Positions 3,281 through 15,254 of a stretch of 21,251 nucleotides of DNA are shown here, piece by piece. This DNA is from a virus. The DNA lies in IMG/VR virus record IMGVR_UViG_3300048597_000206, positions 1-21,251 of that record. One strand, written 5' to 3'. The stretch's first letter is position 1. Each line of letters starts with the position of its first letter. The position numbers and the translations under genes were made by a program. The notes below the pieces were generated by a model. The model worked only from the letters and a program-made list of their open reading frames with translations, was not told the origin of the DNA and ran no database searches.

Positions 3281-3670
3281 TCAGCCGATCGTGGCGCTCA
3301 GCAGCTCCACGGGCGTGCCGGCCACCAGCGACAGCGTGTTGATCACCAGCTTGCCGGCCACCGGGCTGCTGCCGGCTTGCGCATCCATCGCCAGGTACAC
3401 CGTGCCGGTCGAGTTGCACACCTCGCCATAGGCAGCTGCGCCGGTGGCCGCAGCGTTGGGGGTGCTGGCCGCCGTCAGCGTCAGCTGGCCGGTGGTGCCG
3501 TTCACCGTGCCGCAAGGGTCGGTCAGCGTGATGGTGGCCAGCAGCACGTCGGCGCTGCTGCGGATCTTGATCGTGCCCGGGCCGCTGCCGCTGTCGACCA
3601 GGTCGCGGAACGACGTATGCGCCGCGATCTTGGCCGCGGCCGAATAGGTGGGTGCGCCAGGTGCCGGCAT
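3281..3670 (-). CDS. Small phage structural protein, hypothetical
   Basis: 129 residues, rich in Ala, Thr, Ser and Gly and almost without charged residues after the first 40, with beta-strand patterning (KLVINTLSLVAGTPVELL). It starts at ATG 3670 behind a good AAGGAG Shine-Dalgarno that overlaps the stop region of the gene before it. It lies among tail-tip genes, so a minor virion component or an accessory to the LamG protein is likely. No family is recognised and no enzymatic motif is present. Confidence 0.75.
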   Translation of the reverse strand: MPAPGAPTYSAAAKIAAHTSFRDLVDSGSGPGTIKIRSSADVLLATITLTDPCGTVNGTTGQLTLTAASTPNAAATGAAAYGEVCNSTGTVYLAMDAQAGSSPVAGKLVINTLSLVAGTPVELLSATIG

Positions 3671-6706: not shown

Positions 6707-7714
6707 TCAGGAGACTTCGACCGAGGCCTTCTGCGCGCTGATCGTGCAGGCCGCCTGGATGGCATCGCCGGCCGGGAAGGTGCGCGCAATGCCCAGCTTG
6801 CCCTGCGACAGGATGTACGGCGCGGCGTAGCGGTCCGGGTAGAAGCGGAACCACAGCACCGCGTTCTTCAGCGCCACCAGCGCGTCGCTCACGCCGTCCA
6901 CCAGGTAGGCGGTAAAGCTGCCCTGGCCCAGGCTCGATGCAGTGCTGCCCAGCGTGGCGCCGTACACCTGCGTGGAACTCACCGAATGCGATGTCTCGGG
7001 CGGCACGTACTCGCCGGCCAGCGCCACGTCGGCAAAGATCGGTGCGCTGTAGCTGGCATACACCCGCGCCGCGGTCGGGCCGGTGTGGATCAGCGGCAGC
7101 GCGCCGTACAGGCTGACCGATCCGCCCGGCTTGGTCTGCACGCCGTTGTCGATGACCGGGCCGTAGTTGATGTCGTACAGCGGCACGCGCTCCTGGTGCG
7201 TGCCCGGCACCTGGAAGATCTGCGCCGCGGTGATCGGCGCGGCCGTGTTGGACGTCACCCGCACCTGCGCGATCTCCACGCTGTCCACCGGAATCAGCGG
7301 CGGGCCGCCAGCCGCGCCGCGCGTCTCGGAAAACGCCGTCGTGGCGCTGTCTGTGCCGGCCACCACCGCAATGGCGCCGGCCGCGTTGACGGTGATGCTG
7401 TTCACCTTGGCCACCGCCGTCGCCGGCCGCGTGATCGTCGCGCCGCCCGCCGCCACGGCCGTGACCACGCCGTTCAGGTTGAGCGTCAGCGCGGCCACGT
7501 CCACCGCGTTGTTGGCTGCCGCATCGTCGGGGACGACTGCGCCGCCAGTCAGCAGCCCGTTGGGCCGCACCACCGGGGCGGCACCGGCCCGGCCAGACCA
7601 CAGGCTGGCCGCGCTGGTGAAGGTGGTGTTGTCGCCGCTGTTGGTCAGCAGCGTCATGGCCACGGCGCTCTGGCCGGCCTCGTATTGCAGTTTCGCGTTC
7701 TCGGCGGTTGCCAT
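6707..7714 (-). CDS. Putative major tail (tube) protein
   Basis: 335 residues, starting at ATG 7714 behind AGGAG. The first half is low in charge and rich in Ala, Val, Thr and Gly (VDVAALTLNLNGVVTAVAAG). The second half has beta-strand and aromatic patches (HQERVPLYDINYGPVIDNG; AVLWFRFYPDRYAAPYILS). It follows the connector genes and precedes the chaperone and tape measure, the usual place for a tube protein, and has its own downstream terminator, consistent with high output. There is no companion sheath gene, which argues for a non-contractile tail. Family membership is inferred from order and composition. Confidence 0.75.
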   Translation of the reverse strand: MATAENAKLQYEAGQSAVAMTLLTNSGDNTTFTSAASLWSGRAGAAPVVRPNGLLTGGAVVPDDAAANNAVDVAALTLNLNGVVTAVAAGGATITRPATAVAKVNSITVNAAGAIAVVAGTDSATTAFSETRGAAGGPPLIPVDSVEIAQVRVTSNTAAPITAAQIFQVPGTHQERVPLYDINYGPVIDNGVQTKPGGSVSLYGALPLIHTGPTAARVYASYSAPIFADVALAGEYVPPETSHSVSSTQVYGATLGSTASSLGQGSFTAYLVDGVSDALVALKNAVLWFRFYPDRYAAPYILSQGKLGIARTFPAGDAIQAACTISAQKASVEVS

Positions 7715-8844: not shown

Positions 8845-9777
8845 TCAGGCCACCGCGTTTTCGAACCAGTAGCCCAGGTCCGTCGCGCAGACGATCTCCT
8901 TGCAGCGGTGGCCCACCCGCACCTCTTCGCCGCCGTTGTAGCCGCGCTTGGGTTCGGGGATGCTGCCGCTCATCATGCTGCCGGCCTGCGCCGTGAAGCC
9001 GAAGGTCACGCCGGCCTGCGGCCCGGCCGCGCGGTCGCGGTACAGGAAGGCGGCATGCTTGCCCCACACGCGGCTGGTGGCCACCGTCTGGCCCTTCTTG
9101 GCGGTGTTCACGAAGCCGGCACCCACGTACACGTTGCTCAGCTCGAAGAAGTCGGCGAACTCCATGCGCGAGACCATGCCCGCGCCCTGGTTGGTGCCCT
9201 TGATGGCCTGCACCAGCTTGGGGTGGCGGCGCGTCTTGGTCCAGGCGGCCTGGCCGAACACGGCGATGTTGGGGCGGTAGATCGGCACGTCCAGCGCGTC
9301 GCCGATGGCGGCCACCGGGTCGCTGTTGGTCTGGTCGCTCCACTGGCTGGTGCCCGACAGCGTCACGCGGTTTGCGGCCACGTAGCTGGCGCTGTTGAAC
9401 ACCAGCGCGGCGGCGCGGATCTCGCGCGCCAGCTTCAGCAGGTTGGTCAGGTACGCCACCGAAGTGCCGCGCGGGTCCACGCCCTGGTTGTCGTCGTCGA
9501 TGTCCTCGTTCGGGATGAAGTCGCCCAGCGCGAAATCCACCACCTTGTCGGCCTGCTCGGTGGCCGAGAACTCCACCTCGGTCGGAAAGCTCTTGCGGCC
9601 CACCTTCACGTCGGGCACGGTGAAGCCGTTGGCCAGGTCGTAGCGCAGCCACTTGAACTCGGCGCTGGTGGGCGTGGGCGGCAGCACCTCGTCGGCAATC
9701 AGCGCGATGTCGGGGTTGCGGTAGGCCAGGGCGATGGCGGTCAGGCGCGCATCGACGGGAAACGGGCGGGTTGCCAT
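8845..9777 (-). CDS. Major capsid protein
   Basis: 310 residues, ATG 9777 preceded by GGAG. The sequence is typical of the major head protein of Mu-like phages: DEVLPPTPTSAEFKWLRYDL near the N-terminus, VEFSATEQADKVVDFALGDF, LTNLLKLAREIRAAALVFNS, the PNIAVFGQAAWTKTRRHPKL region, and a C-terminus ending CKEIVCATDLGYWFENAVA. These suggest an HK97-fold capsid subunit. It lies after the protease/scaffold and decoration genes in the conserved order, and about 30 bp after the decoration gene. The start follows the same CCGGAGA(A)CACC-type leader as the decoration gene, consistent with strong matched expression. Confidence 0.9.
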   Translation of the reverse strand: MATRPFPVDARLTAIALAYRNPDIALIADEVLPPTPTSAEFKWLRYDLANGFTVPDVKVGRKSFPTEVEFSATEQADKVVDFALGDFIPNEDIDDDNQGVDPRGTSVAYLTNLLKLAREIRAAALVFNSASYVAANRVTLSGTSQWSDQTNSDPVAAIGDALDVPIYRPNIAVFGQAAWTKTRRHPKLVQAIKGTNQGAGMVSRMEFADFFELSNVYVGAGFVNTAKKGQTVATSRVWGKHAAFLYRDRAAGPQAGVTFGFTAQAGSMMSGSIPEPKRGYNGGEEVRVGHRCKEIVCATDLGYWFENAVA

Positions 9778-10222: not shown

Positions 10223-10798
10223 TTACTTGGCGCCGGCCAGCACGGCGTCCACCGCCTGGCTGGTGCTCAGCTCGATGCCGGCCGCCAGCTGGGCGGTCTG
10301 GTAGGCCACCGCCTTGCGGGCCACCTCCACCGGGTCGGTGCTTTCCTTCTTGCCGCGGTCCAGCCCGCCGGTCTGGCCGTTCAGGCCGGGGATGGCCACC
10401 GCGCTGTCCACGAAGGCCTTCAGCGCGGCCATGTCCTTCTTGCCCAGGCCCAGGGCCCAGTCGCGCTGGGCCGGCATGAGCTTGTGCGCGTCGATCGCGC
10501 TGTCCACCAGCTCGGTGACATCGCGGTCCTGGATCTGCGCCGACAGCGTGGCCACCTTGCCCTGCAGCTCGGTCAGCTGCTGCAGCGATGCGGCGTCGGG
10601 CGTGCTCTTCAGCTTGCCCAGCGCGGCCAGCGCGGCGGCCTCGTCGGCGCCGTCGGCCAGGCCGAGTGCGGCCGTCATGGCCTTCGGCAGCGGCGGTGCC
10701 TTCTCCAGCGCAGCCAGCGCGGCAATGCGCTGGGTGATCTGCGTGTCGGTGGCGTCGTCCTCCAGGCCGAGCGCGGTGATCAGTTGCTTGCGGTCCAT
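10223..10798 (-). CDS. Nested scaffold protein from internal start of the protease gene
   Basis: An in-frame ATG at 10798 inside the protease gene is preceded by GAAAGG about 7 bases upstream, giving 191 residues beginning MDRKQLITALGLEDDATDTQ. The encoded segment is helical, acidic and Ala/Leu-rich, including a coiled-coil-like stretch (QQLTELQGKVATLSAQIQ), as expected of a scaffold. In Mu the protease gene likewise contains an internal start producing the scaffold (Z). The sequence supports the same here; separate translation is inferred. Confidence 0.55.
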   Translation of the reverse strand: MDRKQLITALGLEDDATDTQITQRIAALAALEKAPPLPKAMTAALGLADGADEAAALAALGKLKSTPDAASLQQLTELQGKVATLSAQIQDRDVTELVDSAIDAHKLMPAQRDWALGLGKKDMAALKAFVDSAVAIPGLNGQTGGLDRGKKESTDPVEVARKAVAYQTAQLAAGIELSTSQAVDAVLAGAK

Positions 10799-11311
10799 GA
10801 AAGGGCCTTTCGTCTGCGGGGGTTGTTCGGTGAGTGCGGCCAGCGCCGCCACCACGGGCTCCATGCCCACGATGGCCGGCACGCTGACCAGCGCGGCGTT
10901 ATGCAGCCCGACCACGTTGCCCTGCTCGTCGTACAGGATCACCGGGCTGATGTAGCGGTACTCGTTGGCCGTGATGTGCGCCTTGGCGCGCTCGGTCCAG
11001 TTGACCTGCGCGAACAGGCCTTCACCTGCGCGCCAGTCGACGCCGGTGATCCAGCCCGCGGCGGGCGCCGGCTGGCCGTTGCTCTTGGCCAGCAGCGTCT
11101 GGTGTTCGTAGTCGATGCTGATCGGCGTGCGCTGGGCAATCTCGTTCAACTGCGCGGCCAGTGCCAGGCCGAGGCGGTTGTCGAGCTTCCAGGTCTTGCC
11201 GGCACCGGGGCGGCCGTCGCGTGCCGCGAAGTCGCCCGCCGGCAGCAGCTGTGCCTGGCCGTTGGCCAGCAGGGGCAGCGCGGTGGCAAGCAGGGCGGCA
11301 GCGAAACGCAT
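10223..11311 (-). CDS. Mu I-like prohead protease/scaffold
   Basis: 362 residues from ATG 11311 (a TTG three codons earlier is possible). Hallmarks of the Mu gpI family (peptidase U35 type) are QLLPAGDFAARDGRPGAG at about 21-38, SIDYEHQTL with a candidate catalytic His70, PAPAAGWITGVDWR, and EYRYISPVILYDE with a candidate catalytic Ser122. The first 170 residues are the protease. The rest is a helical scaffold that can also be made from an internal start. The hydrophobic extreme N-terminus (MRFAAALLATALPLL) resembles a signal peptide but is part of the normal family start region, so export is not proposed. The gene has no good Shine-Dalgarno and follows the accessory region, so its expression may depend on read-through. 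Confidence 0.88.
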   Translation of the reverse strand: MRFAAALLATALPLLANGQAQLLPAGDFAARDGRPGAGKTWKLDNRLGLALAAQLNEIAQRTPISIDYEHQTLLAKSNGQPAPAAGWITGVDWRAGEGLFAQVNWTERAKAHITANEYRYISPVILYDEQGNVVGLHNAALVSVPAIVGMEPVVAALAALTEQPPQTKGPFMDRKQLITALGLEDDATDTQITQRIAALAALEKAPPLPKAMTAALGLADGADEAAALAALGKLKSTPDAASLQQLTELQGKVATLSAQIQDRDVTELVDSAIDAHKLMPAQRDWALGLGKKDMAALKAFVDSAVAIPGLNGQTGGLDRGKKESTDPVEVARKAVAYQTAQLAAGIELSTSQAVDAVLAGAK

Positions 11312-11411
11312 GGCCGCCAATGTGCCGCCGCACCCGCGCGGGGCCTATCTAAACCGGCTTAGTACAAGGCGCGGCGCGCACGCCCCTGCGGCCGCGCGGC
11401 GCGTGCTGCTA

Positions 11412-12161
11412 TCAGTTTTCCGCTCGGCACAGCGTCACCAGCTGCGGCAGGCCAGGCGCGGCGCACCAGGTGCCCGCGGCGTTGACGAAGCGCTGCACCT
11501 GGCAGTCACACGGCTGGCCGACCGTGGCACGCGGCGCCGCAGCCAGCAGCCGGCCGCCGACCAGGCTGTAGGTGGCACGCGTGCCGCCGGCCAGCGGCGC
11601 CACCAGCCAGCGCTTCTCCAGCGGTGGTGGGGGCGGGGGTGGCGGTGGAACAGCACCCGGCGTGGGCAGCGCCTGTGCCGCCTCGATGGCCTGCATGGCC
11701 ACGCGCTGCCAATCGGGGTCGCACGGGTCATCTGGCGTACACGTTGCCTGGCGTGGCCCGTACTTGGGCCACAACTCGGCCAGCGCGTCGATCACGCTCG
11801 GCGCCTTGCGCAGCGTCTCCGCAGCTTCCCACAGGTACAGCGCTTTCCACTCCTCCTTCACCACGCGGTAGCCGACGCGGCCATCGGGGCACTTCCAGGC
11901 CCAGTAGATGCCGTTGTCCATGATGGATTCGTGCACCACCTCGGACCCGGTGCCGCCGGGAATGACGAAGGGGCCGAACCGGGAAGGCCAACACGGTGGC
12001 GGTGGCGAGCCCTGAGCCCTGGCCGGTGGCGACAGGAGCAGCAGCGCCGGCAGCAGCAGCGCCGCCGGCAGTGCCAACAGTAGCGCCACGGCCAGCGCGG
12101 CAGCGCGATGGAGTGCGGGGCAACGGTGCAGCGGGGGCACCAGGCGGTAGGGCGTGTTCAT
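11412..12161 (-). CDS. Secreted cysteine-rich polyproline protein (accessory)
   Basis: 249 residues from ATG 12161; an upstream GTG would add three residues. The N-terminus is a long Sec-type signal: positively charged start, then AALAVALLLALPAALLLPAL and a likely cut after PPARA-QG. The mature part has eight cysteines (PPPPC, WKC, ATC, DPC, QPCDC, TWC, TLC), enough for four disulfides in the periplasm. A run of nine prolines at residue about 175 separates an N-terminal domain from a C-terminal domain (RWLVAPLAGGTRATYSLVGG, then Cys pairs). It is not a known virion gene and lies in the accessory segment between gpG and the protease. A role in the lysogen's envelope, such as blocking superinfection, or in the virion is possible but unproven. 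Family not recognised. Confidence 0.75.
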   Translation of the reverse strand: MNTPYRLVPPLHRCPALHRAAALAVALLLALPAALLLPALLLLSPPARAQGSPPPPCWPSRFGPFVIPGGTGSEVVHESIMDNGIYWAWKCPDGRVGYRVVKEEWKALYLWEAAETLRKAPSVIDALAELWPKYGPRQATCTPDDPCDPDWQRVAMQAIEAAQALPTPGAVPPPPPPPPPLEKRWLVAPLAGGTRATYSLVGGRLLAAAPRATVGQPCDCQVQRFVNAAGTWCAAPGLPQLVTLCRAEN

Positions 12162-12216
12162 GCCGGGCACTTTGCCGGCGCTGCCGGCGCGCCTCCATGC
12201 ATGGCAGTTTGCGAAG

Positions 12217-12303
12217 TCAACCGCCGAACACGTCGTCCAGGAACGCGACGATCTCGTCGCGCAGGTCGGCCTCGTCTTCGGCGCCCAGCGTACCGGCTTC
12301 CCA
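12217..12303 (-). pseudogene. Orphan 3' remnant of a gpG (virion morphogenesis) gene
   Basis: On the minus strand, 28 codons and a TGA read WEAGTLGAEDEADLRDEIVA then FLDDVFGG. The intact gpG gene ends WQAGTLGAEDEADLSQEIVK then FLDDVFGG. By my count 24 of 28 residues and 71 of 87 bases agree, with many synonymous changes. Similarity fades upstream of the Trp codon. This is a direct repeat of the gpG 3' end lying 1.77 kb further along the operon, without a start codon. The divergence suggests it came from a related phage rather than from recent duplication. Confidence 0.85.
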
Positions 12304-12307
12304 GTTG

Positions 12308-12333
12308 GCCCGCCAGCTTGCCGGCCGGCGGGC
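12308..12333 (-). other. Perfect hairpin at the remnant junction
   Basis: GCCCGCC and GGCGGGC (7-bp arms, 12-base spacer) flank the point where similarity to gpG ends, 37 bp after the stop of the 88-residue gene. No T-run follows on the minus strand, so a terminator role is doubtful. It may mark the recombination junction. Confidence 0.45.
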
Positions 12334-12369
12334 GCTGCCTACAGACAGACACGTTTGCCATTCAGCCCG

Positions 12370-12636
12370 CTATGGCTCTGCCCTCAAGCTGTCGGCGGCA
12401 ACCGCCGCCTTCGAGTTGACCAGCGCCACGCGGCGCCGCATCTCGGCGTTGAGCACGTCGATCACCAGTCCCAGCGCGTAGTGCTTGACCTCCATCGACG
12501 GGTGCAGGTCGCCCACCAGCGAGCCCAGCACCTCAAAGGCCAGCGTCATGTCCTCCACTTCGGTGAGCGCGTCCATGATGCCGCCCACCGCCAGCATGGG
12601 CGGCGTCAGCTGCGGCTTGGCACTGTAGGCCGTCAT
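12370..12636 (-). CDS. Hypothetical 88-residue protein coupled to the Rha regulator
   Basis: The ATG overlaps the stop of the Rha gene (ATGA at 12633-12636), a strong sign of coupled translation. The protein is predicted to be mainly helical (GIMDALTEVEDMTLAFEVLG; HYALGLVIDVLNAEMRRRVA) with no membrane segment or metal-binding motif. It shares the accessory cassette with the regulator and may act with it. I do not recognise a family. That it is a real gene is supported by the overlap and by good codon use. Confidence 0.7.
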   Translation of the reverse strand: MTAYSAKPQLTPPMLAVGGIMDALTEVEDMTLAFEVLGSLVGDLHPSMEVKHYALGLVIDVLNAEMRRRVALVNSKAAVAADSLRAEP

Positions 12637-13346
12637 TGCGCACCCCCCGGCACCTGGGCCATACGGTCGTTGTGCTCGCGCCGGGCCGGCGAGTAGCCGC
12701 CTTCGATGATGCGGTAGATGGTGGTGCGCGGCAGGTCGATCTCCAGCGCGATGGCCACCTTGGTGTAGCCCTGGGCAAACATCAGCCGCACGCGGTCTTC
12801 CACCTCGCTGGTGACGGTGGCATAGGGCCGGGTGCGCGGCTTCTTCTTCTGGTTGCTTTCCAGCAGGCTGACATAGCGCTTGGTCACGTCCACCAGGTCC
12901 AGGATGGCATTGACCTTGGTGTCCACCTCGGCCTGCCGCTCGATGAGCGCGGCCACGTTGCGCTGCATGGTATCCACCGCCTGGGCCAGCGCCGGCAACG
13001 CCGCGCCGCCGCGCAGCTGCGATTCCATTGCGTTGAAGGCGGCGATGAAGGCCTCCTTGAACTGCGCCGCGCGCGGGCCGGTGAAGCCCATCGCCAGGAA
13101 GGTGAAGCCGTCGCGGGTCATTTCGACCATCGGCTGGGGCTTGTTCTGGGCGTTGACGAAGGCGGACTCCTCAAAATTGAGGAGTCGGAACGGCTCCGAG
13201 CAGTCAAGCCGCTGGATGTCCCTCAGCACGTTGTCGTGTCGCTTGCCGAAAATCTCGGCAACATCGCGGCTGGTGACGCGAGGGTGGCCCTCGCGGATCG
13301 TCATTGGGATCGGCGGCAATTGCACCGCCGGCAGCACTTCGGTCAT
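12633..13346 (-). CDS. Rha-family phage regulatory protein with C-terminal HTH
   Basis: 237 residues, ATG 13346 with GAGGAGT five bases upstream. Residues 24-107 are a pRha domain: VTSRDVAEIFGKRHDNVLRD, FEESAFVNAQNKPQPMVEMT, RDGFTFLAMGFTGPRAAQFK. Residues about 118-165 are helical and may form a coiled coil. Residues about 183-215 contain a helix-turn-helix pattern (AQGYTKVAIALEIDLPRTTI) of a type not present in the minimal Rha domain, so this is a two-domain DNA-binding candidate. Rha proteins are regulators in lambdoid and other temperate phages; finding one inside the head-gene cluster of a Mu-like phage is unusual. It probably has its own promoter in the 13347-13657 region. Targets are unknown; operator-like inverted repeats lie upstream. 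Confidence 0.88.
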   Translation of the reverse strand: MTEVLPAVQLPPIPMTIREGHPRVTSRDVAEIFGKRHDNVLRDIQRLDCSEPFRLLNFEESAFVNAQNKPQPMVEMTRDGFTFLAMGFTGPRAAQFKEAFIAAFNAMESQLRGGAALPALAQAVDTMQRNVAALIERQAEVDTKVNAILDLVDVTKRYVSLLESNQKKKPRTRPYATVTSEVEDRVRLMFAQGYTKVAIALEIDLPRTTIYRIIEGGYSPARREHNDRMAQVPGGAQ

Positions 13347-13403
13347 GGGTCACTCCTCGCAGTAAGCGAATGGCTCCAACCTGAGCCATCCAGTTTCGCC
13401 TGC

Positions 13404-13568
13404 TGTTCAGACAGGCGGCCGGGTGCTGAACACCGCTGCGAGGCGGCCCCCAGTTTTCCCCTTGCGGGTCTTGTATGGCTGGGCGCCACCCGGCCATAGA
13501 TCATGGCCGAAGAAATGCCCCGGATGTCGGCCGAGGCTTCCCGCTCGCAGAAAAGGTGTGTTCAGCAC
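13404..13568. repeat. Inverted repeat copies of TGTTCAG / GTGCTGAACAC
   Basis: GTGCTGAACAC at 13423-13433 has a perfect 11-bp reverse complement, GTGTTCAGCAC, at 13558-13568, 125 bp away. A partial copy, TGTTCAG, lies at 13404-13410 facing the first, so 13404-13433 is itself a dyad of half-sites. The arrangement could be operators for the Rha/HTH protein with looping between them. Confidence 0.65.
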
Positions 13569-13601
13569 CTAGGGGGGTATGTTACGCGGTGCGCAAACCC
13601 T

Positions 13602-13630
13602 TTGCAACCGGCGAAATGGTTAGGCATCAT
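13602..13630 (+). promoter_or_regulatory. Candidate sigma70-type promoter for the 81-residue gene
   Basis: TTGCAA at 13602-13607 and CATCAT at 13625-13630 are separated by 17 bp; each matches 4 of 6 consensus bases. The start would be near 13637, 20 bases before the ATG, with an AAGGGG Shine-Dalgarno at 13645-13650. Its match is modest. Confidence 0.4.
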
Positions 13631-13657
13631 CGATGCGCAACTTCAAGGGGCCAGCTC

Positions 13658-13903
13658 ATGACACTGGAAGAACGCACCGACCACCTGCACGGCCAGATCA
13701 GCGCGCTCAGCTCAGCACTTCGAACGCTGATCCTGGGTCATCCGCTGCGCCTCGAGATTCAGGCGGCGCTGCGTGACCATGCAGCGGACGAGGCCCTGGC
13801 GGCGAGCCTTTTCGAACCGGTGACGGATGCGTATCAGGCGGGTCTCCTGGAGATGCGCGCTTTCCTGGCGAGCCCCGATCCGACCATTGGGCGGGGATCC
13901 TGA
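13658..13903 (+). CDS. Divergent hypothetical 81-residue protein
   Basis: This is the only convincing plus-strand gene in the prophage part of the window. ATG 13658 follows AAGGGG at good spacing; the longer upstream frame reads as poor protein and is not used. The product MTLEERTDHLHGQISALSSA continues as helical, amphipathic sequence (LRLEIQAALRDHAADEALAA) and ends TIGRGS. The N-terminal part has heptad-like spacing and may dimerise. No family is recognised. Its orientation against the late operon means it can be expressed from the lysogen when late genes are silent, the usual sign of a moron. Confidence 0.65.
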   Translation: MTLEERTDHLHGQISALSSALRTLILGHPLRLEIQAALRDHAADEALAASLFEPVTDAYQAGLLEMRAFLASPDPTIGRGS

Positions 13904-13983
13904 TCGCGGCCGCAGCGGGATGGCGCTGACCCGCACTCAGCCGGGCACTGAAGGCGGCCCACCACTGGTGGTACAGCACAGCG

Positions 13984-14481
13984 TCACCCCCCGAACACGT
14001 CGTCGAGAAACTTCACGATCTCCTGGCTCAGATCGGCCTCGTCCTCGGCGCCCAGCGTGCCTGCCTGCCAGTCGGCCAGGAAGATGCCGCGGCGCAGCAT
14101 GCGGCGGGTGCCGGTTTCGTGCAGCAGCGGGATGCTCCAGCGGCCACCGTCGGTGAGGCGGCTCATGCCCACCTCGACGAAGTCGTCGCCGGCGTTGCGC
14201 GACAGGCTGTCGCGCATGCGGCCGGTGCGCTCCAGCAGCGTGCCCTTGCGCGCGCCCTTGTCCTGCTTGGCGTAGCGCTCCGTCGTGGACGGTGCCAGCG
14301 GCTGCCACGGCACGCCCGACGGGTCGCGCTTGGTGTCGAAGCGGCGCTCGATGTTCCTCACCAGCTTGTCGCCCAGCGACAGCATCAGGTCGCGCGGCTT
14401 GCGCAGCTGCTGCACCGCGCGCAGCAGCTCGGCCCGCAGCTCGTCGGCGCCGGTGACTTCGATGCTCTTGAACTCGGCCAT
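13984..14481 (-). CDS. Mu gpG-like virion morphogenesis protein
   Basis: 165 residues, ATG 14481 two bases after the MuF stop. It has the phage virion morphogenesis (Phage_tail_S, Mu gpG) pattern: ELRAELLRAVQQLRKPRDLM, FDTKRDPSGVPWQPLAPSTT, a Lys-rich loop, LLERTGRMRDSLS, and the C-terminal GIFLADWQAGTLGAEDEADL. The family acts in head-tail assembly. Its 3' end is repeated in diverged form as an orphan fragment at 12217-12303, and the accessory genes start directly after its stop codon. Confidence 0.9.
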   Translation of the reverse strand: MAEFKSIEVTGADELRAELLRAVQQLRKPRDLMLSLGDKLVRNIERRFDTKRDPSGVPWQPLAPSTTERYAKQDKGARKGTLLERTGRMRDSLSRNAGDDFVEVGMSRLTDGGRWSIPLLHETGTRRMLRRGIFLADWQAGTLGAEDEADLSQEIVKFLDDVFGG

Positions 14482-14483
14482 GC

Positions 14484-15254
14484 TCAGCCGCCGCGCTGGC
14501 GCAGCGCGCTCATGCGCGCCTCGCCCGGGTTGTAGGCAAAGCCGGGGTCGATACCTGCAGGCACCTCGCCCTCCTGCCCGGTGCGCTTGTCCAGATAGCG
14601 CACCATCTGCACCGGCGGCGCCTCGCGCTTGATGGCGAAGCCGTCATCCACATAGCGCTGCAGGTCTTCCTCGCCCATTGCGATCGCACGGCAGCGGCAG
14701 CGCCAGCCGTTGGGCGGGAAGTGCGTCTTCCAGAACGGGTGGTCCACCGGCAGTGCCACGCCGTCCCAGGCGCGGTGGCTGATGCGCACACGCTCGTCGC
14801 GCATGGTGCGGTACAGCAGAAAGGGCGCACGGTCACGCCCGCGCACGGCCGCCGCCCAGCGCCCGGCGGCGTTGCTCTGGCGCAGGTTGGTGTCCAGGAT
14901 GAGCTGCAGCCTGGCCGGGTTGAAGCGCGTGATGCGTTGCTCGCCGGTGGCGGCGTCGGTGATCGACACGTCGCCCCACCAGCCGGCCTTGGCCAGCTCG
15001 GGCTGCAGCGCGTCGGTAAAGTCCCGCAGGCTCTGGCCGGTGCGCAGCGCTTCTTCGACGCTGCCGCGCACCAGCTGCAGCACGTCGTTCTCGGCGATGC
15101 CCGACACCATGAACGCAGCCGCGTGCTCGGCCTGCCACACGTCCCACCAGTTGAAGGTGGGCTCGAGCAGCTGGCGCTCGATGAAGGCGGCGATCGCCTC
15201 CTCGGGCGTGATGCTGCCCAGGCGGAACCCAGGCGGTGTGGGCGTGTCGGCCAT
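14484..15254 (-). CDS. MuF-like head morphogenesis protein
   Basis: 256 residues from ATG 15254; the frame is open upstream but that part overlaps the previous gene in another frame and is rejected. The MuF domain is clear: NLRQSNAAGRWAAAVRGRDR at about 123-142, RISHRAWDGVALPVDHPFWK with His160 and His172, and PPNGWRCRCRA at 180-190. MuF proteins are minor head proteins carried in the virion near the portal. No toxin domain is fused here; the C-terminus is short and ends GFAYNPGEARMSALRQRGG. There is no visible Shine-Dalgarno, so translation may depend on the gene ending 13 bases upstream. Confidence 0.92.
   Translation of the reverse strand: MADTPTPPGFRLGSITPEEAIAAFIERQLLEPTFNWWDVWQAEHAAAFMVSGIAENDVLQLVRGSVEEALRTGQSLRDFTDALQPELAKAGWWGDVSITDAATGEQRITRFNPARLQLILDTNLRQSNAAGRWAAAVRGRDRAPFLLYRTMRDERVRISHRAWDGVALPVDHPFWKTHFPPNGWRCRCRAIAMGEEDLQRYVDDGFAIKREAPPVQMVRYLDKRTGQEGEVPAGIDPGFAYNPGEARMSALRQRGG

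Follow-up and report, generated by a model that had tools for sequence, protein, structure and literature searches.

A repeated gpG 3' end and an sRNA-Xcc1 RNA in the gpG-gpI accessory slot of a Mu-like phage

Background

Mu-like phages of Pseudomonas carry anti-CRISPR (Acr) operons in the gap between the genes gpG and gpI, as in JBD30 (AcrF1 with a helix-turn-helix (HTH) protein) and JBD5 (AcrE1 and AcrF3); the same gap holds AcrF2 in D3112 and two Acr proteins in Ab30. The acr-bearing region has been named RGP G, a low-GC region (PMC4378225). Among small phage RNAs, the C4 RNA of P1 and P7 is a separate antisense RNA with the same regulatory logic as we propose below (PMC12197685). The RNA family sRNA-Xcc1, founded on a discrete 88-nucleotide Xanthomonas RNA with mapped ends (PMC2996969), is described either as integron-borne upstream of symE or as a virulence-linked or vesicle-carried, trans-acting RNA with many distant targets (PMC12444791, PMC2996969, PMC12189769); its relation to symE has been left open, and in Xanthomonas integrons its mode of regulation upstream of symE is unexplained (PMC12444791). 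Here we analyze a 21,251-nucleotide stretch of viral DNA (IMG/VR record IMGVR_UViG_3300048597_000206, positions 1 to 21,251; hereafter the window), in which the 3' end of gpG occurs twice, on either side of an accessory cassette containing the Rha-family gene rha and an sRNA-Xcc1 RNA.

From sequence comparison, the most plausible account of this repeat is a scar left when modules were exchanged between diverged gpG alleles in the gpG-gpI accessory slot, and we place a probability of roughly 0.82 on the joint reading—a module-exchange scar together with an antirepressor-type cassette under antisense-RNA control. By itself the scar is a modest, if good, example of phage mosaicism; the RNA within the cassette is more interesting.

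The 3' end of gpG occurs twice

The window contains a minus-strand Mu-like head module, recognized with Pfam (portal PF06074, gpF PF04233, gpG PF05069, gpI PF10123), in which gpG is placed in the PF05069 family by its profile match and by the gene order portal-gpF-gpG-gpI. The features relevant to the repeat are:

13984..14481, minus strand: intact gpG, Mu-like virion morphogenesis / tail completion protein, 165 amino acids (PF05069, E 7e-15; PHROG 26)
13983..14077, minus strand: repeat copy 1, the last 30 codons and stop of the intact gpG
12216..12310, minus strand: repeat copy 2, the orphan gpG 3' end (putative scar), 30 codons and stop, with no start codon
12311..12369, minus strand: spacer between the orphan and an 88-amino-acid gene, on the breakpoint side, with no detectable gpG homology

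The two copies align without gaps over 95 nucleotides (12216-12310 and 13983-14077) at 82% identity. They share 30 codons and a TGA stop, with 25 of the 30 residues identical and 17 base differences, 11 of which fall at third positions. The initial annotation, made from the letters of the window, had reported the last 29 codons of gpG as present twice with 24/28 residues identical; the repeat is borne out over a slightly longer span, and the residue count is correct for the shorter one. That annotation also named two outcomes that would have undone it, and neither was found. Chance similarity is ruled out by a within-window BLAST of the gpG repeat (96 bits, E 6.7e-23), by a repeat scan in which the second-best long direct repeat spans 50 nucleotides at 72%, and by a gpG protein search that recovers the orphan at E 2.3e-12. 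Nor does the orphan belong to a gene with a usual start of its own: its frame runs uninterrupted from the end of the upstream open reading frame (ORF), and ATG, GTG and TTG are all absent from it.

On one side the gpG homology of the orphan stops one base past the stop codon, and on the other it stops at gpG residue 136. Past the residue-136 edge, the next 60 nucleotides are no more similar than shuffled sequences (P = 0.45 anchored, 0.28 local), and allowing gaps did not raise the gpG similarity in front of the orphan above that level. A match of 27-28 nucleotides between the orphan edge and 3346-3373 lies within a coding region and was judged a GC-rich chance match. Within its 30 codons, the orphan keeps an intact frame and all family-conserved residues of this gpG stretch.

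An sRNA-Xcc1 RNA lies upstream of rha

Between the two gpG copies lies a full-length match to sRNA-Xcc1, situated between rha and a divergent 81-amino-acid gene, on the rha strand and 62 nucleotides upstream of the rha start. Its pairing elements and its neighbor are:

13409..13495, minus strand: sRNA-Xcc1 (RF02221), model positions 1-87, 78.2 bits against a gathering threshold of 53, E 8e-14
13436..13443, minus strand: hairpin-2 loop CCUCGCAG, a perfect 8-nucleotide complement of the rha ribosome-binding site
13353..13360, minus strand: target site CUGCGAGG, overlapping the rha Shine-Dalgarno sequence (GAGGAG)
13426..13432, minus strand: junction segment UGUUCAG, the second pairing element of the RNA
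13404..13410, minus strand: leader segment CUGAACA, a perfect 7-nucleotide complement of the junction segment
12633..13346, minus strand: rha, Rha-family phage regulator of antirepressor type with a C-terminal HTH, 237 amino acids (PF09669, E 7.2e-33; HTH_7, E 5e-6; TIGR02681)

The Rha assignment is secure by profile, with PF09669 scoring 113.5 bits against a cut-off of 29.9 and TIGR02681 also above its cut-off. The C4 covariance model had no match in 11000-15000, nor in 13300-13700 at E values up to 0.01; RF02221 alone matched. RNAs of the same family occur at locus L019, which as discussed below also has a scar, and at locus L020, where a further rha lies downstream, and in both the loop is complementary to the ribosome site with letters unlike those of the window. 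At locus L021 (5691-5882, plus strand), a different Rha gene is preceded by isrK and C4 RNAs, so that two RNA families serve one gene family.

Loop and ribosome-binding site change together across loci

We scanned viral contigs for the conserved core of the RNA with the loop excluded, which gave at least 119 stretches; the viral statistics rest on the matches listed. For each de-duplicated loop we took the longest perfect complement to the 26 nucleotides before the start codon, with start codons selected by ribosome-site strength and not by complementarity, and compared true pairs with random re-pairings (2000 shuffles). Re-pairing keeps kinship between loci; loops were de-duplicated, and the effect is limited to the correct segment pair.

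Among the matches listed, the 86 distinct viral loops gave a mean complement of 6.01 nucleotides, compared with 3.53 when re-paired (standard deviation 0.098, shuffle maximum 3.88, z about 25), and complements of at least 7 nucleotides were found in 56% of true loop/leader pairs vs. 1.0% of mismatched ones; a hairpin-free version of the statistic gave 6.61 vs. 3.95 (n = 90). When the junction was compared with the upstream leader (the second site), the values were 5.84 vs. 4.08 (n = 81); for the loop and the upstream leader, which served as negative control, they were 4.00 vs. 3.91. Several of the failing loops look by eye like miscalled hairpins. In an independent chromosomal set found by the covariance model alone, the loop site gave 6.07 vs. 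4.23 (z = 10, n = 30). The loop and the ribosome-binding site thus change together across loci, and because they covary in this way, each sRNA-Xcc1 cassette would be specific to its own adjacent gene, as is the C4 RNA of P1 and P7.

Two groups of loci extend this picture. Relatives of sRNA-Xcc1 below the Rfam cut-off (L118-L123, about 71 nucleotides) lie upstream of short proteins, several with loop complements of 6-8 nucleotides to the ribosome site, and are likely an unlisted subfamily. A subgroup with longer leaders (L152, L227, L124, L190) has loops that pair with a CCGCA-type element, not with a purine-rich ribosome site (9 nucleotides by eye in L152).

The genes behind viral sRNA-Xcc1 RNAs are mostly phage antirepressors or small proteins, and the commonest named families are of antirepressor type. 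In a Pfam scan of 76 proteins (75 viral downstream proteins plus the Rha of the window), whose ORFs were picked for at least 6 nucleotides of complementarity and are therefore not independent of the pairing test, the overlapping classes were Rha (11), AntA (9), ORF6N (8), P22_AR_C (8), KilA-N (7), P22_AR_N (4), ANT (3) and Bro-N (2); named examples are ant of Escherichia phage Rac-SA53 and the KilA-N gene of Vibrio phage Cla. On chromosomes, the SymE toxin gene (PF08845) directly follows sRNA-Xcc1 at four loci (L246, L248, L270, L271), three of them with loops that complement the symE ribosome site over 7-8 nucleotides, and these loci bear on the published question of how sRNA-Xcc1 and symE are related (PMC12444791).

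Taken together, we consider it likely that sRNA-Xcc1 RNAs are widespread self-addressed antisense RNAs, each with the complement of its neighbor's ribosome-binding site in its hairpin loop, forming portable self-silencing cassettes—with phage antirepressors, and on chromosomes, probably in integrons, with SymE-type toxins—that have repeatedly been loaded into the Mu-like gpG-gpI slot, sometimes leaving gpG scars. Under the regulation we propose, sRNA-Xcc1 would be transcribed with or ahead of rha; its hairpin-2 loop would pair with the rha Shine-Dalgarno site while the second single-stranded segment pairs with the leader upstream of that site, and this pairing would block Rha translation in the lysogen. 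Loss of sRNA-Xcc1 or an excess of mRNA would free Rha to act on the repressor. Such cognate specificity would let units move among phages, including into the gpG-gpI slot, without cross-silencing.

The gpG-gpI slot in relatives

gpI starts at most 203 nucleotides from the gpG stop in 23 of the 27 loci with a recognizable gpI, and because the slot is usually this short, the interval in the window is an insertion relative to its relatives. Longer gaps are those of L079 (882 nucleotides), L071 (1100), L019 (1532) and the window itself (2663), where the cassette has a GC content of 61-67% vs. 70-72% in the neighboring genes. Judged by its sequence, L019 (IMGVR_UViG_3300021057_000053) is a second scar like that of the window, with an intact gpG followed by a frameshifted gpG 3' fragment (a direct repeat of 64 nucleotides at 78%). 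A convincing gpG scar was seen only in these two of about 56 gpG loci examined, and none of the gpG remnants sought in twelve Pseudomonas Mu-like phages was convincing. MP38 and Meltemi (L102 and L103), whose gpG-gpI gap lacks annotated acr genes, follow JBD30 as far as the last 14 or so gpG codons; from there on, both the end of the allele and the sequence behind it are different. Cargo swaps do, therefore, sometimes break within the 3' end of gpG. Accessory genes downstream of gpG at locus L004 include one with an Acb2/Tad1 hairpin domain, of the anti-CBASS type (7230-7457, plus strand; PF24729, E 1.7e-17).

An sRNA-Xcc1 unit lies between gpG and the protease gene in five phages (the window, L019, L151, L192 and L208), the protease being called by profile in the window and L019 and as protease-like from a reading of the ORF sequence in the other three. 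The unit has the same orientation as gpG in the window and the opposite one in the remaining four. The same layout recurs in genome G491, where about 1.15 kilobases separate a weak match to gpG from an RNA match below threshold. Because only two of the RNA-unit loci keep a scar, the scar would be an occasional by-product of slot loading and not a requirement for it.

Probable origin of the scar

The topology of the scar and the divergence of its two copies are plain from the alignment. We simulated divergence with a varying fraction of the 17 differences falling on a neutral orphan (2000 runs): when half or more of the differences were neutral, five or fewer amino-acid differences arose in no more than about 0.4-5% of runs, the value varying with the gpG constraint assumed, and when all were neutral they arose in 0/2000. 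Because such outcomes are rare, most of the divergence would predate the stranding, and the comparison supports two gpG alleles that diverged under selection, most differences having arisen while both were functional.

The order of events and their direction were presumably as follows. A block comprising the accessory cassette and a gpG allele, or no less than the 3' end of one, would have joined inside the gpG of a related phage, and unclean recombination would have left the last 30 gpG codons of the recipient stranded beyond the cassette. Much of this agrees with the initial annotation, whose view that mostly synonymous changes mark both copies as selected gpG genes is supported (11/17 third-position differences, neutral simulations disfavored). 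Its proposal that a block containing the Rha cassette entered beside a related gpG allele gains from the insertion relative to relatives and from the low GC content of the cassette; for the exact history, the check it suggested found no parental arrangement, as no phage in the collections searched has gpG followed by this Rha cassette, or an intact gpG that ends in the orphan allele and precedes the secreted-protein gene. A degenerate FLDDVFGG-stop pattern likewise had zero matches in viral contigs. Either crossover may have come first, and the intact gpG may be a full donor gene or a chimera. We regard the history given by that annotation as most likely, short of proof; what it missed is the structured antisense-type RNA inside the Rha cassette, and it overlooked that anti-CRISPR genes of Mu-like phages are known to reside in this slot.

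Alternative explanations

A tandem gpG duplication within one phage, with the cassette inserted between the copies and the second copy then decaying, would give the same topology of intact copy, cargo and 3' fragment. Copies that began identical would have placed at least half of the 17 differences in the untranslated orphan, for which the simulations return five amino-acid differences in 0.4-5% of cases, and the homology ends directly past the stop codon, which is what alleles taken from phages with different neighbors would show; we consider this origin improbable. Repeated insertion behind gpG in many phages, the recurrence of a scar in L019, and the MP38 and Meltemi breakpoints inside the gpG 3' end could also be produced by a mobile cassette that targets the gpG 3' end, by site-specific or homing insertion, and brings a replacement 3' end with it. 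This is quite improbable, however: no recombinase or endonuclease was recognized among the cassette proteins except for the resolvase-type HTH in Rha, a long identical core such as an att site would leave is absent at the breakpoint edge of the two copies, and cargo and orientation vary among phages, three of which carry an RNA unit after gpG without a repeat. It is more improbable still, and very much so, that the orphan has been kept for a function, whether as a translated C-terminal peptide or as a homology arm for cassette excision. Its intact frame and retained family-conserved residues would suit such a role but are explained by recent stranding, while the frame ahead of the fragment, as far as the preceding stop, has no ATG, GTG or TTG, and simple homologous excision would work poorly on so short a stretch with 82% identity.

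Several points weigh against exchange between diverged alleles combined with antisense control. The orphan is only 30 codons long, and neither parental arrangement occurs in any close relative, so that we infer the exchange history; L151, L192 and L208, with the RNA after gpG and no scar, indicate that scars and RNA units need not be causally linked. On the regulatory side, that Rha acts as an antirepressor is suggested by family membership, and transcription, processing and repression by sRNA-Xcc1 are presumed from the layout. The RNA might moreover be a cis-acting leader (riboregulator) of rha instead of a separate antisense RNA: it lies on the same strand, 62 nucleotides upstream, and the predicted fold of the joint leader in the window forms the loop-Shine-Dalgarno pair in cis. 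We hold this to be possible but doubtful, as the founding member from Xanthomonas is a discrete 88-nucleotide RNA with mapped ends (PMC2996969) and the two-site layout matches that of C4, for which a separate antisense RNA has been described (PMC12197685).

Other genes of the cassette and its flanks

The remaining genes around the repeat are:

12370..12636, minus strand: 88-amino-acid ORF (from the ORF table), overlapping the rha stop by 4 nucleotides in a translationally coupled layout
13658..13903, plus strand: 81-amino-acid ORF, convergent with gpG and divergent from rha
11412..12170, minus strand: secreted-protein gene directly after the orphan stop, with an N-terminal signal-like stretch; no homologue found
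10223..11320, minus strand: gpI, Mu-like head maturation protease on the far side of the slot (PF10123, E 1.5e-85)

The 81- and 88-amino-acid proteins match no family above cut-off in Pfam, PHROGs, NCBIfam or PADLOC and no known Acr or Aca; judging from their position, an anti-defense role, including that of a novel Acr, is possible. Weak chromosomal hits of the 88-amino-acid protein run antisense to a Lon-like gene and were judged to be chance, and a kinship of the two proteins with the small proteins downstream of other sRNA-Xcc1 RNAs was not significant. Searches for sigma-70 promoters and terminators returned none or chance-level matches.

The closest gpG relatives of the window (L004 and L005) share 62-63% identity, and in L005 gpI comes after gpG. 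The collections searched held no close relatives of gpI, the secreted protein, or the 88- and 81-amino-acid proteins. The capsid protein (8845-9777) is closest to that of L015 whereas gpG is closest to L005 and L004, and L005 has no match to this capsid protein, pointing to an older mosaic junction between the gpG and capsid genes. A 13-nucleotide element, GCCGGCAAAGTGC, lies at 12167-12179 (minus strand), just 5' of the secreted-protein start, and also precedes gpI in L011, L016 and L018; its presence in the gpG-gpI gap of these loci is only suggestive, being weak after multiple comparisons, of the orphan side as the native junction.

Comparison with known systems

The scar would be a readable trace of cargo entry into a slot used by other Mu-like phages for anti-CRISPR genes. 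With the Casadabanvirus acr-aca locus (RGP G), the window shares the gpG-gpI position and the pairing of low-GC accessory cargo with a regulator; it differs in having no known Acr or Aca, in a regulator composed of Rha and an RNA, and in the orphan gpG end that remains. Mosaic scars and morons of tailed phages likewise leave a gene fragment beside inserted cargo, whereas the scar of the window is made from the 3' end of a conserved head gene and was seen in 2 of about 56 gpG loci.

Whereas the literature on sRNA-Xcc1 centers on symE and on distant targets, the rule in the window is complementarity to the adjacent gene, and this loop-to-ribosome-site rule offers a concrete, testable mechanism for the family. 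If it is true, the main target of each sRNA-Xcc1 copy could be read from its own sequence, the family would belong functionally with the C4 RNAs, and predictions of distant targets would need re-examination. A C4-like antisense role for sRNA-Xcc1 was not found in the literature searched, which covers few subscription papers, and N15 was rejected as a validated sRNA-Xcc1 member, as it matches C4. By family, the RNA of the window and its relatives match RF02221 and not RF01695 (C4), and C4 is placed in Rfam clan CL00128 while sRNA-Xcc1 is in no clan; the neighbor genes of sRNA-Xcc1 are also more varied, including SymE and small proteins. In layout, however, the correspondence is close: C4 (P1, P7, N15) is a small structured RNA on the same strand as, and just upstream of, an antirepressor gene, as is the RNA of the window. 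C4 is also complementary, through two segments, to the leader close to the ribosome-binding site, and both sites have counterparts in sRNA-Xcc1, so that sRNA-Xcc1, by analogy, appears to work like a C4 antisense RNA.

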